From assembly GCA_021793275.1 (NCBI GenBank), contig JAJYTC010000020.1, positions 1-40,465 of the forward strand: DNA of 40,465 bases. The letters are read 5' to 3'. Shown in pieces: positions 2,877 to 10,253 of the stretch. This stretch comes from Deltaproteobacteria bacterium. Lineage in GTDB: Bacteria > Desulfobacterota > Syntrophobacteria > Syntrophobacterales > Syntrophobacteraceae. The notes beneath the pieces were generated by a model. The model ran no database searches. It was given only the letters and a program-made list of their open reading frames with translations, and had not been told where the DNA came from. Numbering within the stretch: position 1 is the stretch's first letter; each line of letters begins with the position of its first letter. Position numbers and translations under genes: made by a program.

Positions 2877-3584
2877 ATGCTGACGATAAGCCATTTCGCG
2901 GAAATCGCCCGCAATTCCCCATGGCTTGCTCTTCTTCTCTCCTTTGCCGGCGGCGTTCTGGCAAGTTTTACCCCCTGCAGCTACCCTATGATGCCGATAA
3001 CGGTCGCATTTATAGGCGGCAAAGCCAACGGCAGCAGGCGCAGGGGTTTTTTGCTGTCCCTTTTTTATGTGCTGGGCCTGGCCACCGTCTATTCGACGCT
3101 GGCCATCTTCGCCGCCCTGACCGGCCAAATGTTCGGCGCTCTTACCGCCAGTCCATGGGTTTACCTGGCGGTCGCCAATATTTTGCTCTTTTTCGGGCTG
3201 GTGATGCTTGAAGCGGTTCCGCTTGCCCCGCCCGGTTTTCTCAATAACTTGAAGGTAACGGGGTTTTCGGGCCACGATGTTTTTACCAGCATGATACTTG
3301 GCGGGGCATCGGCCCTTGTTGTCAGCACCTGCACGACTCCTATTCTCGCCTCTCTTCTGGCCCTTGTGGCCGTCAAGCGACAGATCGTGCTCGGAGTCGG
3401 CATGCTGTTTTCTTTTTCGCTTGGCCTGGGAGCTCTGGTGATCGTAGTGGGTACATTCACAGGGTTGCTTGCCTCCCTGCCTCGTTCCGGAAAATGGATG
3501 GTGAGGGTCCAGAGGATTTTTGGAATCCTCATGATTATCCTGGCAGAGTATTTCCTTATCAAAGCAGGAGAATTTTGGATATGA
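2877..3584 (+). CDS. CcdA/DsbD-type transmembrane thiol-disulfide transporter
   Basis: This 235-residue integral membrane protein has about six hydrophobic helices. It carries TPCSYPM (near residues 32-38), the CcdA/DsbD redox-cysteine motif, and a second cysteine in STCTTP (near 142-147). In this family the two cysteines carry reducing equivalents from cytoplasmic thioredoxin across the inner membrane to periplasmic partners for cytochrome c maturation or disulfide repair. It corresponds to the membrane core only; the periplasmic DsbD domains are absent. The next gene encodes a periplasmic thioredoxin and starts within this gene's stop codon (ATGA at 3581-3584), so the two are probably a working pair. 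GAGG lies about nine bases before the ATG. Confidence 0.88.
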   Translation: MLTISHFAEIARNSPWLALLLSFAGGVLASFTPCSYPMMPITVAFIGGKANGSRRRGFLLSLFYVLGLATVYSTLAIFAALTGQMFGALTASPWVYLAVANILLFFGLVMLEAVPLAPPGFLNNLKVTGFSGHDVFTSMILGGASALVVSTCTTPILASLLALVAVKRQIVLGVGMLFSFSLGLGALVIVVGTFTGLLASLPRSGKWMVRVQRIFGILMIILAEYFLIKAGEFWI

Positions 3585-4072
3585 ATCTGAAAACCATCAA
3601 GAAATTGGCTATGTTTTTCCTATCAGCCACGCTGCTCACAACCGTAGTTTTCTACCTTCCGGCAAGAGCGGCTGAACAAGCTCCCGATTTCACCTTGCCG
3701 AGCCTCAACGGGACCATGGTGTCTTTGAACCAGTTTAAGGGACAAAAGCCTGTTCTCGTCGAATTTTTCGCCACATGGTGCCATTTCTGCCGGGCAATTC
3801 ATCCCCAGATTGTCAAACTGCGAGAGTCCGTCCCCGAATCCAAACTGGCCATCGTTGCGATCGACGTTGGAAGCGGAGACTCGCTGGAGAGGGTCAAGCT
3901 CTATGTAAAGAACCACCCGTCGCCCTTTACGGTGCTCTATGACAAGGGTTCGATAGTCACGCGCACTTACGGCGTCGAGGGGATACCCCATATTGTCCTG
4001 GTGGACAAAAATGGTAACATCAAATACCAGGGCAGTGAGCTCCCCTCCGATCCGATGAGCCTGGTTCAATAG
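3581..4072 (+). CDS. TlpA/ResA-like periplasmic thioredoxin
   Basis: A 163-residue exported thioredoxin-fold protein. The N-terminus (about 1-30) is a signal peptide or anchor: basic start, hydrophobic core LSATLLTTVVFYL, then PARAA before the mature domain. The redox motif is WCHFC (Trp66 to Cys70), preceded by APDFTLPSLNG, typical of TlpA/ResA/AhpC-like proteins, and GIPHIVLVDKNG carries the cis-Pro region. The start at 3581 is chosen over an upstream in-frame ATG at 3494 because it gives the signal peptide, has an AGGAG box, and overlaps the preceding stop by four bases. It likely receives electrons from the CcdA-like protein and reduces periplasmic disulfides, for example in apocytochrome c. 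Confidence 0.88.
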   Translation: MNLKTIKKLAMFFLSATLLTTVVFYLPARAAEQAPDFTLPSLNGTMVSLNQFKGQKPVLVEFFATWCHFCRAIHPQIVKLRESVPESKLAIVAIDVGSGDSLERVKLYVKNHPSPFTVLYDKGSIVTRTYGVEGIPHIVLVDKNGNIKYQGSELPSDPMSLVQ

Positions 4073-6208: not shown

Positions 6209-6511
6209 CTCATCACCTCCCGTGGTCCTTTTTACAAAAAATCCCGTGTTCCTCTCAATCGTTTTATTTCTTTATCACCGCCGGCTTTTCATTAGACGAA
6301 TAACCAGTCGATAAAGTTCACATCTGCAACAACTTCATTTTTCCAATCCGCGGGGTCAAAAATTGGGTTGCCCTTTGAGCATAGTGCTGTTAAATTCGCT
6401 AAGTCCTTATTTTCTCTTCCGAGCGCCGGAGCCAGTCGAAGCCCGAGCGAATCGACACCGGAGACTCTCGTCAGATCCGGTTCACAATTGCCTATTGTTA
6501 AGGAAATCCAT
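6209..6511. other. Divergent intergenic region
   Basis: About 300 bases between the minus-strand His/Tyr-rich gene and ctpA. It must hold both promoters, but no convincing -35/-10 pair was found. An open frame from 6368 runs into ctpA, but it lacks coding character before the ctpA start and is taken as untranslated. Confidence 0.5.
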
Positions 6512-7840
6512 ATGCCTAAGAACCAAAAACTTTTACTTCTCATCACAGTCGTTGTCCTGATTTTGACGTTCGGGAGTCGTTCGACGCTCGCCCAGACCGC
6601 CGATCTGTCTGCAAATCAGGATACTTATCACTATTTGAAACTTTTCAGCAACGTCCTGACGATCGTGCAGGATAACTACGTAGAAAAGCCAAACCAGAAA
6701 AAGCTCATATATGGGGCTATAAACGGGATGATCAGCCAACTCGATCCCCACTCCTCGTTCCTTACGCCTACGGAATACAAAGAACTGCAGGTCGAAACGA
6801 GGGGGAAATTCGGCGGCCTCGGGCTGGAGATAACGATCAAAAACCACATTTTGACCGTGGTTTCCCCGCTTGAGGGCACCCCTGCCGATAAGGCCGGCAT
6901 CAAGGCTAACGATCAGATACTCAAAATCGATAATGAGTCCACTCAGGGTATGTCGCTGATGCAAGCGGTGCAAAAGATGAGGGGCCCCAAGGGCAGCAAG
7001 GTGAAGCTGACGATTTTGAGAAAAGGCATTGCAAAGCCGCTGCAAATGGAATTGGCACGGGCGATCATTTCCATTAAGAGCGTAAAGTCGATGGCGCTCG
7101 CACCGGGGATCGGCTACGTAAGGATTTCGAGCTTTGAAAGCGGAACGGCAAGAGATCTGCACAAGGCGATCGAAAAGCTCCAGGCCGAAAATCCCGGCGG
7201 CCTGAAGGGACTGATACTTGATTTAAGGAATAATCCGGGTGGCTTGCTCGATCAGGCGGTCGAGGTGAGCGATCAATTCCTGAATGGAGGACTGATCGTC
7301 TACACCAAAGGACGACTGCCGGACCAGAAGATGCGCTTCGATGCCCATAAAAAAGCGCATCCCCTCACGTTTCCGATGGTCGTGCTCGTAAACGGCGGGT
7401 CGGCAAGCGCATCGGAAATTGTTGCCGGAGCGCTGCAAGACCACAAAAGAGCTATAATCATGGGCACACAGACCTTCGGCAAGGGCTCGGTACAGACCGT
7501 GATTCCTCTAAGCGGCGGCGCGGCGCTAAGACTTACCACGTCCCTTTACTACACGCCTTCCGGCAGGTCCATTCAGGCTGAGGGAATCACACCGAATATC
7601 GTGGTAAGAAGGACAAGTCCGGAGGCGGCGAAGCTCGACAAAAGCGACCAACGGAGTGTCATCCGTGAAATAGACCTTCCCCACCACTTCAAGGAGCAGA
7701 ACCCGCCTGCTGTGAAAAAAGCGAAGCCGTCGCCTGCTCAGATCGCAGCTCAAAAGTTCGTCGCTGGAGACAACCAGGTCAGGCGCGCGCTCGATCTGCT
7801 CGAAGGCTACCAAATATTGGCCGAAACGCAGTATAGATAG
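6512..7840 (+). CDS. ctpA: Carboxy-terminal processing protease (S41 family, PDZ-containing)
   Basis: An exported serine protease of 442 residues that trims C-termini of periplasmic proteins, often peptidoglycan hydrolases. It has an N-terminal hydrophobic signal or anchor (about 5-25), a PDZ domain (roughly 85-165, GGLGLEI and DQILKID) and an S41 catalytic domain. The nucleophile is Ser299 in GSASASE and the general base Lys324 in TFGKGSVQ, the usual 25 residues apart. The start at 6512 has AAGGAAAT upstream and gives a proper signal; an in-frame ATG at 6368 would add 48 residues unlike any secretion signal. A polysaccharide-deacetylase gene follows, a pairing common in this phylum and consistent with envelope remodelling. 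Confidence 0.93.
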   Translation: MPKNQKLLLLITVVVLILTFGSRSTLAQTADLSANQDTYHYLKLFSNVLTIVQDNYVEKPNQKKLIYGAINGMISQLDPHSSFLTPTEYKELQVETRGKFGGLGLEITIKNHILTVVSPLEGTPADKAGIKANDQILKIDNESTQGMSLMQAVQKMRGPKGSKVKLTILRKGIAKPLQMELARAIISIKSVKSMALAPGIGYVRISSFESGTARDLHKAIEKLQAENPGGLKGLILDLRNNPGGLLDQAVEVSDQFLNGGLIVYTKGRLPDQKMRFDAHKKAHPLTFPMVVLVNGGSASASEIVAGALQDHKRAIIMGTQTFGKGSVQTVIPLSGGAALRLTTSLYYTPSGRSIQAEGITPNIVVRRTSPEAAKLDKSDQRSVIREIDLPHHFKEQNPPAVKKAKPSPAQIAAQKFVAGDNQVRRALDLLEGYQILAETQYR

Positions 7841-7861
7841 TATCCATCCGACAAACCCGTG

Positions 7862-7960
7862 TCGTCAGGGCGGGGTGGGCACGATGATGCCCACCCCGCT
7901 TACGCTCCCCTACCCTGCACCAGGTGTGCGTCAGGGTTGGGGGGGGCGAAGCGGGGTAAG
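7862..7960. repeat. GC-rich palindromic intergenic element
   Basis: Between ctpA and the next gene is a perfect 12-bp inverted repeat (GCGGGGTGGGCA at 7870-7881, TGCCCACCCCGC at 7888-7899) with a six-base loop. A second, imperfect inverted repeat pairs ACCCCGCTTACGCTCCCC (7893-7910) with the G-rich segment near 7941-7957. No T-run follows, so it is not a standard terminator. The layout resembles dispersed palindromic repeats, but only one copy is in this window. Confidence 0.55.
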
Positions 7961-8095
7961 CTTTACCGTCACCACAAAGAAGTTTTTGGATGGAGGCCGG
8001 GTAGTACTGGAGCCTGGCGGTCTTTGTCTGTGCCGCATCGGCGTTCATATTTTTAGTCTGAGTCAGTCTGGGAAGGCAGCCGGAGAAGAAGAATC

Positions 8096-9151
8096 TTGCC
8101 CTCGAAAAAACGGACTAAAAGCGGGAAATCAAGCGGAGGGAAAAAAGGCAAAAGCGGTCCCAAGGCCGCGGCTGCCCTCAAAAAAAGGCCATCGACGCCT
8201 GTTTTGGCTGCATGGGTCCTCGCCCTGTTTTTTTTGGCGGCCCTTCTGTATTTTGCCAGGGAGAGCCGTCGTCTGCCACCGTTGCACCACCTCGAGAGCG
8301 CCCCTAAGGTTGCAAAAACTCCCGGCGCCCGGACCTCGCCTCCGGAAGTCCGAACAAAGCCGGCCGGCCCTGCGGGCAAACATCCATCCACCGAGGCCGC
8401 AGCAAAACGGCGCGCCTCTCATCTTGCCACTGTTTCGCCGGCGACTCGCCCCAAGGCCCCCGCGTTACCCGTTATTCACGGGCATGCCAGGCCTGAACTA
8501 TCTATCGTCATAGACGATTTCGGCCCCAGCCTCAGGGTCGCCAGGAAATTCGCCTCCCTTCCCTTCCCCGTCACCTTATCCGTTCTGCCTTTTCAAGCCT
8601 ATAGCAGTAAGATCGCAAAGATGGCCCACCAGGACGGCAGGGAAGTCATGCTGCATCTTCCGATGCAACCTTTGGACAGTCACATAAACCCTGGTCCCGG
8701 CGCTCTGATGGTTTCCATGTCTCCCGGCCAGATCCGGCTGAGCGTCACCGCCGCCCTGGATACTTCCCCTTACTTTGACGGCGTCGACAACCACGAGGGC
8801 TCGAAGTTTACACAGGATGCCAAAGACATGGAAATCGTCCTATCCGTGCTGAAAGATCGCAAACTTTTCTTTGTAGACAGCATGACGATAAACAAGAGCG
8901 TAGGGTGGAAAGAAGCCCGGCGGATGAGGGTCCCCACGTTCAAGCGCAACGTTTTTCTTGATGACATCCTTTCCGCAGGCGCTATTCGCTCACAGATAGA
9001 AAAGGCCGTGGAAATCGCCAAAGTCCGGGGAGCAGCCCTTGCCATTGGACATCCCCATGCAATCACTTTGCGGACGCTGCGGGCTGCTGCCGCCTATTTC
9101 AGAAAAGAAGGCGTCGAGATGGTTCCTGCCCACGACCTCGTGGGCAGGTGA
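8096..9151 (+). CDS. Divergent polysaccharide deacetylase family protein (YibQ-like)
   Basis: A 351-residue membrane-anchored protein: a basic Lys/Gly-rich cytoplasmic start, one transmembrane helix (about 36-54, VLAAWVLALFFLAALLYF), a Pro/Lys/Ala-rich linker, then the YibQ-type 'divergent polysaccharide deacetylase' domain from about 130 to the end. Family motifs are SIVIDDFG, REVMLHLPMQP, DNHEGSKFT, FVDSMTIN and AIGHPHA. The enzyme fold suggests action on peptidoglycan or another envelope glycan, but activity of this family is poorly established. The start is TTG at 8096, with GGAGAAG about ten bases upstream; no ATG is available before the transmembrane segment. It follows ctpA by 255 bases and may belong to its operon. 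Confidence 0.85.
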   Translation: MPSKKRTKSGKSSGGKKGKSGPKAAAALKKRPSTPVLAAWVLALFFLAALLYFARESRRLPPLHHLESAPKVAKTPGARTSPPEVRTKPAGPAGKHPSTEAAAKRRASHLATVSPATRPKAPALPVIHGHARPELSIVIDDFGPSLRVARKFASLPFPVTLSVLPFQAYSSKIAKMAHQDGREVMLHLPMQPLDSHINPGPGALMVSMSPGQIRLSVTAALDTSPYFDGVDNHEGSKFTQDAKDMEIVLSVLKDRKLFFVDSMTINKSVGWKEARRMRVPTFKRNVFLDDILSAGAIRSQIEKAVEIAKVRGAALAIGHPHAITLRTLRAAAAYFRKEGVEMVPAHDLVGR

Positions 9152-9194
9152 GAAGAGACCTGAGGGTGAATATCCACTACGAAGGAGAAACTCA

Positions 9195-10253
9195 ATGAAA
9201 ATTTACGCTCGCGCTAGAACTGTTTTTGCTTTGGCCTTCTTTTGCTTATCGGTTTCAGTCACGCCGGCATTTGCGAAGGTGACACAAAAGTCCACCACGC
9301 AACACCAGGCCACGGCTCATCCGTCTATCCAGGTCCAGGACCCCGAGTATAACTTCGGTACGGTGGTGCAGGGCGGCACGGTCGAGCACGCATTTACCGT
9401 GAAAAATACCGGTAAGGAGGTGCTCAAGATCGAGCAGGTCAAAGTGGGTTGAGGGTGCACGCTTGTCCGGTTCGATCCGGCAATCCCTCCCGGCGGCGAG
9501 GGAAAGGTGATAATGAAAGCGAACCTGGCGAATTTCCAGGGAAACGTTGTCAAAACGGCAACCATTACAAGTAATGACCCGGATGACCCTGTGCAGGCTT
9601 TGAAGCTCGAAGGATTTGTCAAACCCATCGTCTTAATGAAGCCTTCGCCAAACGTAGCGCTCAGGGCGCCGGCCGGTCCGCTCTCCGAGTCGGTGGTAGA
9701 ACTTATAGCTGCAAAGACTCCTTTTCACATCACGAGCATCGATACAAACCTGGCGGGAAGCATAAACTACTCTCTTCAAACGGTTTCGGAAGGAACGGAT
9801 TACAGGTTGAAAATTTCAAACAAGATCCGCAGAGGGAACTACAGCGGATTTATCAGACTTAAAACCGATCTGCCGCGCGTCCCCTATTTGTTCGTCCGTG
9901 TGATGGGGATCATCAAGGGCGAAATATCGGCGACCCCCGAGACCGTCATGATTGGAGAACTGAGCGCCGGCATGCCTGTGCGTTCAGGCAGCGTGACCGT
10001 CACCAGCAACGAGGACAAGCCTTTCAAGATTACCGGCCTCACTTACGACAAAGCTCTCATGTCGGTTTCTCAGAAAAAACTCGAAAATCGAAACGGCTTC
10101 CTGCTGAATATCCGGCCAGAGCTGCAGAGCGCCAAGCCCGGTTCTGTCAAACAGGCGCCCCTGGCGGTCGAAACGAACGTCGGACCTTACGGCAAAGCCG
10201 ACGTGTTGGTCATTATCTTCAATAATTCGAGCGGGCCCCCGACCAGGCGTTAA
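9195..10253 (+). CDS. Exported DUF1573-domain protein with predicted selenocysteine at codon 86
   Basis: If the TGA at 9450-9452 is read through, a single 352-residue frame results. GAAGGAG precedes ATG 9195, and residues 1-28 are a signal peptide ending TPAFAK. The DUF1573 (ASH-like beta-sandwich) domain covers about 45-140: YNFGTVVQGG, AFTVKNTGKEVLKIEQVKV, then the family's CGCT motif, here stop-G-C-T, then PPGGEGKV and SNDPDDP. The in-frame TGA therefore falls exactly on the first family cysteine, giving U86-G87-C88, and strong homology continues directly after it. Residues 140-352 are further beta-rich sequence. A stem-loop follows the TGA. The function of the family is unknown; a periplasmic redox or structural role is inference. 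The alternative is a pseudogene or a sequencing error of TGC/TGT. Confidence 0.8.
9450..9490 (+). promoter_or_regulatory. Candidate bacterial SECIS element at the Sec codon
   Basis: Immediately after TGA (9450-9452) the RNA can fold as GAGGG 9451-9455 with CCCTC 9485-9489, then TTG 9463-9465 with CAA 9481-9483, a bulged T at 9466, and CCGG 9467-9470 with CCGG 9477-9480 around the loop TTCGAT. The loop starts 19 bases after TGA, within the known spacing for bacterial SECIS, and a bulged U is also a known feature. The loop lacks a G in its first two positions unless the closing G-C opens. Confidence 0.5.

Follow-up and report, generated by a model that had tools for sequence, protein, structure and literature searches.

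Selenocysteine (Sec) forms of DUF1573 proteins have been known for nearly two decades, and the family has no assigned function. An ocean survey of 2008 lists them as OS_HP2 (pfam07610, motif UxC) and counts 2 forms with Sec against 354 with Cys (PMC2398784). A 'DUF1573 domain-containing protein, UGC' (pfam07610) is also listed as a selenoprotein in PMC9312934 and PMC13188914, both of which credit the Sec form to Zhang and Gladyshev 2007, and NCBIfam carries a model, NF041425, named 'OS_HP2 family (seleno)protein' (OS_HP2_seleno). The Cys-form DUF1573 proteins (PF07610) have the domain and a CGC motif in common with the protein studied here; they differ in having a Cys codon for UGA and no selected hairpin. 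A Sec-Gly-Cys motif is likewise shared by the UGC-type peroxiredoxin-like selenoproteins tabulated in PMC2398784. The fold of those proteins is unrelated to the Ig-like fold of the DUF1573 protein. They (pfam00578) have the thioredoxin fold. Selenoproteins outside the cytoplasm are not new as such, periplasmic formate dehydrogenases and NiFeSe hydrogenases being examples.

The stretch analysed here, of 40,465 nucleotides and called the window below, was earlier given a sequence-only reading, which placed an in-frame TGA in the gene of an exported DUF1573 protein, where the CGCT motif has its first Cys, and, knowing of no reported Sec form, suggested a new selenoprotein class. The translation and the PF07610 match confirm the position of the TGA. 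The new class does not hold, as Sec DUF1573 proteins were already present in the three papers and the NCBIfam model cited above. From sequence comparison we put at about 0.9 the probability that the gene is a genuine selenoprotein of the known Sec-DUF1573 (OS_HP2-type) family, of which it is a three-domain member. The features of the locus are as follows.

6368..7840, + strand: S41 C-terminal processing protease (CtpA/Prc), with which a conserved block begins (domain search, locus comparison)
8096..9151, + strand: PF04748 divergent polysaccharide deacetylase (YibQ-like), the immediate upstream neighbour of the DUF1573 gene in nearly all of the relatives compared (domain search, locus comparison)
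9195..10253, + strand: probable Sec-containing gene for a DUF1573 protein of 352 residues with three Ig-like/ASH-like domains, ending in TAA (ORF and translation, PF07610 match, AlphaFold2 model)
9195..9275, + strand: predicted signal peptide, about residues 1-27, with Ala-X-Ala before the likely cut between TPAFA and KV (read by eye; helix 3-20 in the model)
9327..9620, + strand: DUF1573 domain (residues 45-142), in which a loop joining strands 77-84 and 88-93 carries the Sec (PF07610, model)
9450..9452, + strand: UGA codon, probably read as selenocysteine, U86 (translation, homologous codons, hairpin, tree)
9456..9458, + strand: Cys88, the partner at U+2 (translation, homologue comparison)
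9463..9483, + strand: SECIS-like hairpin in which a 3 bp lower stem is followed by a one-base bulge and a 4 bp upper stem with a loop of 6 nt (folding, comparative stem test, RNAalifold)
9627..9914, + strand: second Ig-like domain, about residues 145-240 (model, structure comparison)
9924..10223, + strand: third beta-sandwich domain, about residues 244-343 (model)

The gene starts 43 bases past the end of the PF04748 gene, has a purine-rich GAAGGAGAAA upstream of its start codon, and its translation starts MKIYARARTVFALAFFCLSVSVTPAFA. Codon 86 is the TGA at 9450-9452, in the context VKVG-U-GCTLVRFDPAI, where it replaces the first Cys of the C-G-C-T motif, and 266 more residues follow before the TAA. 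The open frame beyond the TGA was thus described correctly in the sequence-only reading, apart from its length, as the 267 codons given there include the stop. Ordinary gene calling would cut the gene at codon 86 and leave two false pieces, 9039-9452 and 9507-10253. The PF07610 match (residues 45-142) scores 73 bits against a cut-off of 26.1, the UGA lies at the first Cys (UGC) and Cys-form homologues exist. The likeness to the described OS_HP2/DUF1573 selenoprotein lies in the Pfam domain, the Sec position and the UGC motif; the difference is a length of 352 residues with two further Ig-like domains. Against NF041425 the protein scores 98 bits with Cys substituted for Sec and 93 bits in the genome search, missing the cut-off of 100, and we do not claim the model's name for it for that reason. 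Other long members of the same architecture reach 100-113 bits and pass.

A homologue was found in 87 of 148 related genomes, and most of the better ones have one TGA. About 60 long homologues from related Desulfobacterota have TGA as the homologous codon. A few differ there, with TGC or TGT in G011, G001, G016b, G018b and more distant homologues, ACA (Thr) in G014 and TCA (Ser) in G022. As judged from these sequences, the placement of TGA at this one codon is far beyond chance. On the 3' side of the TGA, dN/dS was 0.21-0.33 over 263-266 codons in four comparisons and similar upstream, values by which the frame after the UGA is under purifying selection. In a tree of 121 domains, which has few columns and many unresolved forks, well-supported branches require the long-Sec label to have changed at least 7 times, so Sec has been interchanged repeatedly with other residues, including Cys. 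With Thr or Ser in its place in two relatives, the Sec residue is dispensable in some lineages. These two relatives (loci L041 and L044) belong to one genus and have the substitution despite the presence of selA and selB; G014 retains 7/7 stem pairs of the hairpin described below, as if its Sec codon had been lost recently.

The hairpin at 9463-9483 has a predicted energy of -8.1 kcal/mol and 18 nt from the UGA to its 6-nt loop, and is a slightly shifted, bulged version of the stem shared by the relatives. With its 4 bp upper stem it lies within the size, spacing and energy limits of the bSECIS model (loop 3-9 nt, upper stem 4-16 bp, UGA-to-loop 16-37 nt, MFE <= -7.5; PMC13188914). That model expects a G within the first two loop positions, and the predicted loop, UUCGAU, agrees with it only if the top G-C pairs open; a subset of bSECIS elements departs from the model (PMC13188914). 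Taken alone, the hairpin of this gene is no more stable than its shuffles (z 0.30), and for this reason the argument for it rests on a comparative test. Seven pairs, formed by the bases 10-16 and 26-32 nt after the UGA, were scored in each sequence against 1,000 synonymous recodings that kept protein and codon usage. The long Sec genes (n=57) paired 5.82 of the 7 stem positions where 4.76 were expected (z 10.7) and the short Sec paralogues (n=20) gave z 5.6, values that are optimistic in that the stem was picked after viewing folds of these sequences and the sequences are related, not independent. The main safeguard is the non-Sec control, 12 homologues scored identically, which gave z 0.5. 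RNAalifold recovered the same stem unprompted from 23 sequences hand-chosen from the Sec set. Across those 23, the pair 12-30, both members of which are third codon positions, occurs as GC, CG, UA, UG, AU and GU, with 14 two-sided changes and 0 broken. The hairpin thus appears to be kept by compensatory synonymous changes and selected only in TGA genes. The window as a whole gave no Rfam match above threshold, no tRNA by ARAGORN and no match in a search of the plasmid collection.

The genome itself contains a tRNA-Sec gene (selC, 74 bits, anticodon TCA, contig C140), selA (618 bits) and selD (379 bits). The last, at G000:C115:14356-15276 (L048), has an in-frame TGA of its own and is thus a TGA-containing (Sec) gene itself. 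The sequence-only reading had proposed a check for the sel genes, which thus found selA, selC and selD. Of selB it found a C-terminal piece of 159 residues, which has 91% identity with the SelB of a relative and lies where contig C90 starts. The remainder of selB is absent from the assembly. A candidate SelB N-terminus on contig C166 (44% identical to the relative's SelB) and matches on contigs C226 and C235 (30% identical) were not counted as selB. Among the relatives, G092, G123 and G131 have a homologue with TGA and no match to selA, yet carry selB and tRNA-Sec. The genome of G092 (L134, L164, L202) is a single contig rated 99% complete, and its missing selA may reflect a diverged selA, a stretch missing from the data, or some other way of making Sec-tRNA. 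In G089, which lacks selA as well as a full selB, the Sec position is Cys. The TGA homologue of G123 is a weak one (G123b, 42 bits, context PCUGAQ), and its TGA was dropped as a Sec site.

Two readings that dispense with selenocysteine can be weighed on this evidence. Cys forms exist and TGC or TGT becomes TGA by one substitution, so a nonsense mutation or a sequencing error could have turned a Cys-form gene into a pseudogene or a misread one, the alternative that the sequence-only reading had raised. The same TGA recurs in dozens of independently assembled genomes and across genera, the frame downstream is under purifying selection, the hairpin covaries and selA, selC and selD are present, by all of which we regard this alternative as refuted, with a chance close to nil. 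The UGA might also be decoded as another amino acid, by near-cognate Trp or Cys readthrough or in a recoded genome, and one short paralogue does have Trp (TGG) at the position. A changed genetic code is ruled out by the PF04748 gene 8096-9151, which ends in TGA as an ordinary stop. Against readthrough, Cys is the main alternative residue at the site, TGA is found together with tRNA-Sec and selB, and the hairpin appears to be under selection only in TGA genes, so that such decoding is very improbable. Insertion of selenocysteine at the first motif Cys is the reading that these data uphold, and it is strongly supported computationally that SelB with Sec-tRNA(Sec) would read the UGA at 9450-9452 under the direction of the hairpin just downstream.

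The product would then be exported, as the predicted N-terminal signal peptide supports, lose that peptide, and fold into three Ig/ASH-like domains. In the AlphaFold2 model (mean pLDDT 92) all three are Ig-like, and the loop that bears Sec86-Gly-Cys88 would sit at a pole of the first domain. This domain is nearest to ASH/PapD-like domains (HYDIN, CEP192) and VesC Ig-like domains (VIA-align Z 10-12 over 97-104 residues), a likeness of fold, and no Sec/Cys pair is known in them. Matches of the whole model to axonemal and cadherin chains (rmsd >10 A) reflect repeated Ig-like domains only and were set aside, and a search for sequence relatives with a solved structure gave none beyond 2qsv (E 0.0026).

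U86 and C88 are the only Sec or Cys residues of the mature protein, and Cys occurs at U+2 in 59/59 long Sec forms. The simplest reading of the two residues would be a selenenylsulfide pair, and it is somewhat probable that they act as a thiol-selenol redox centre, in which the selenol and thiol are oxidised to an internal selenenylsulfide and reduced again. The pair could be a metal-binding or structural site instead; two ligands for a soft metal in an exported domain of Ig-like fold would be an example. Ig/ASH-like folds, to which the first domain belongs by structure comparison, are usually binding modules and not enzymes, and U-x-C is able to ligate soft metals. Retention of Sec against Cys over long evolution usually accompanies redox catalysis, however, and the partner Cys, either strictly at +2 or moved to +27/+28 in the short clade, behaves as a selenenylsulfide pair should, though a ligand pair might do the same; we consider a metal or structural site unlikely.

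The position of the gene offers one of two clues to its function, the other being the movable partner Cys. Among 22 relative loci read with their flanks (L051 and L052 from named MAGs), 19 have the S41 protease, PF04748 and DUF1573 genes in this order on one strand. In L090 a contig end cuts the block, which still includes PF04748. Two loci are located away from the block: L092, which is a Cys paralogue, and L098, which is a second Sec paralogue. Eight loci, none of them from the nearest relatives of the window, have FtsE- and FtsX-like genes further upstream, and in seven of the eight an M23/EnvC-like gene was detected between FtsX and the protease. The block was noted at 6368-10253 of the window and at L085, L089, L093, L094, L099, L101 and L102. 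The window itself has no ftsEX-envC beside the block; there, and in those of its nearest relatives whose flanks are long enough, the FtsE/FtsX part gives way to genes for CcdA and a TlpA-like protein and a GlgC-like gene. The CcdA (DsbD transmembrane) and TlpA-like thioredoxin genes, at 2877-4072 on the same strand and kept in the nearest relatives, could plausibly supply reductant to the exported Sec protein, though they are 5 kb away.

The conserved block, behind ftsE-ftsX-envC in several relatives, suggests a role in cell-wall splitting. From gene order, a component of cell-wall splitting or remodelling is the leading candidate, though on balance a doubtful one, for the client or partner of Sec-DUF1573. 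The full proposal, which we hold to be speculative and rather unlikely to be right in every part, is that Sec-DUF1573 is a redox component of the septal wall-splitting machinery (FtsEX-EnvC-CtpA-PF04748 block) in Syntrophobacteraceae and related Desulfobacterota, and that a short clade moved the Sec partner Cys from U+2 to U+27/28 across the same pole of the fold. If true, the remodelling of peptidoglycan outside the cytoplasm would be under the influence of selenium chemistry, which would tune it. The block position and the movable Cys make the function directly testable. None of the best 8 of 382 partial literature matches joined selenocysteine with FtsEX, a weak sign that no such report exists. 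The cell-wall gene block of Sec-DUF1573 is provisionally taken to be undescribed in the literature searched, which consisted mostly of papers outside subscription.

The short paralogues (L143-L162, L169-L190) are single-domain proteins of about 140-170 residues and, but for a few, form one clade (support 100/94). A first set includes 17 Sec members that lack Cys at +2, and every one of them carries Cys at exactly +28; in a second set the Cys is at +28, or at +27 where one residue is deleted. Such a movable partner points to a Sec-Cys pair. From the order of strands in the model, the U86 loop and the loop of residue 114 would lie at the same pole of the sandwich. The shift from U+2 to U+27/28 appears, provisionally, to be unreported in the literature searched. 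Two short Cys forms, G025s and G019s3, are without the +28 Cys, and G064s and G101s, outside the short clade, have neither Cys. Both Cys positions are kept in G016s1, G012s3, G015s3 and G024s1, a state that would arise if gain of the second Cys preceded loss of the first.
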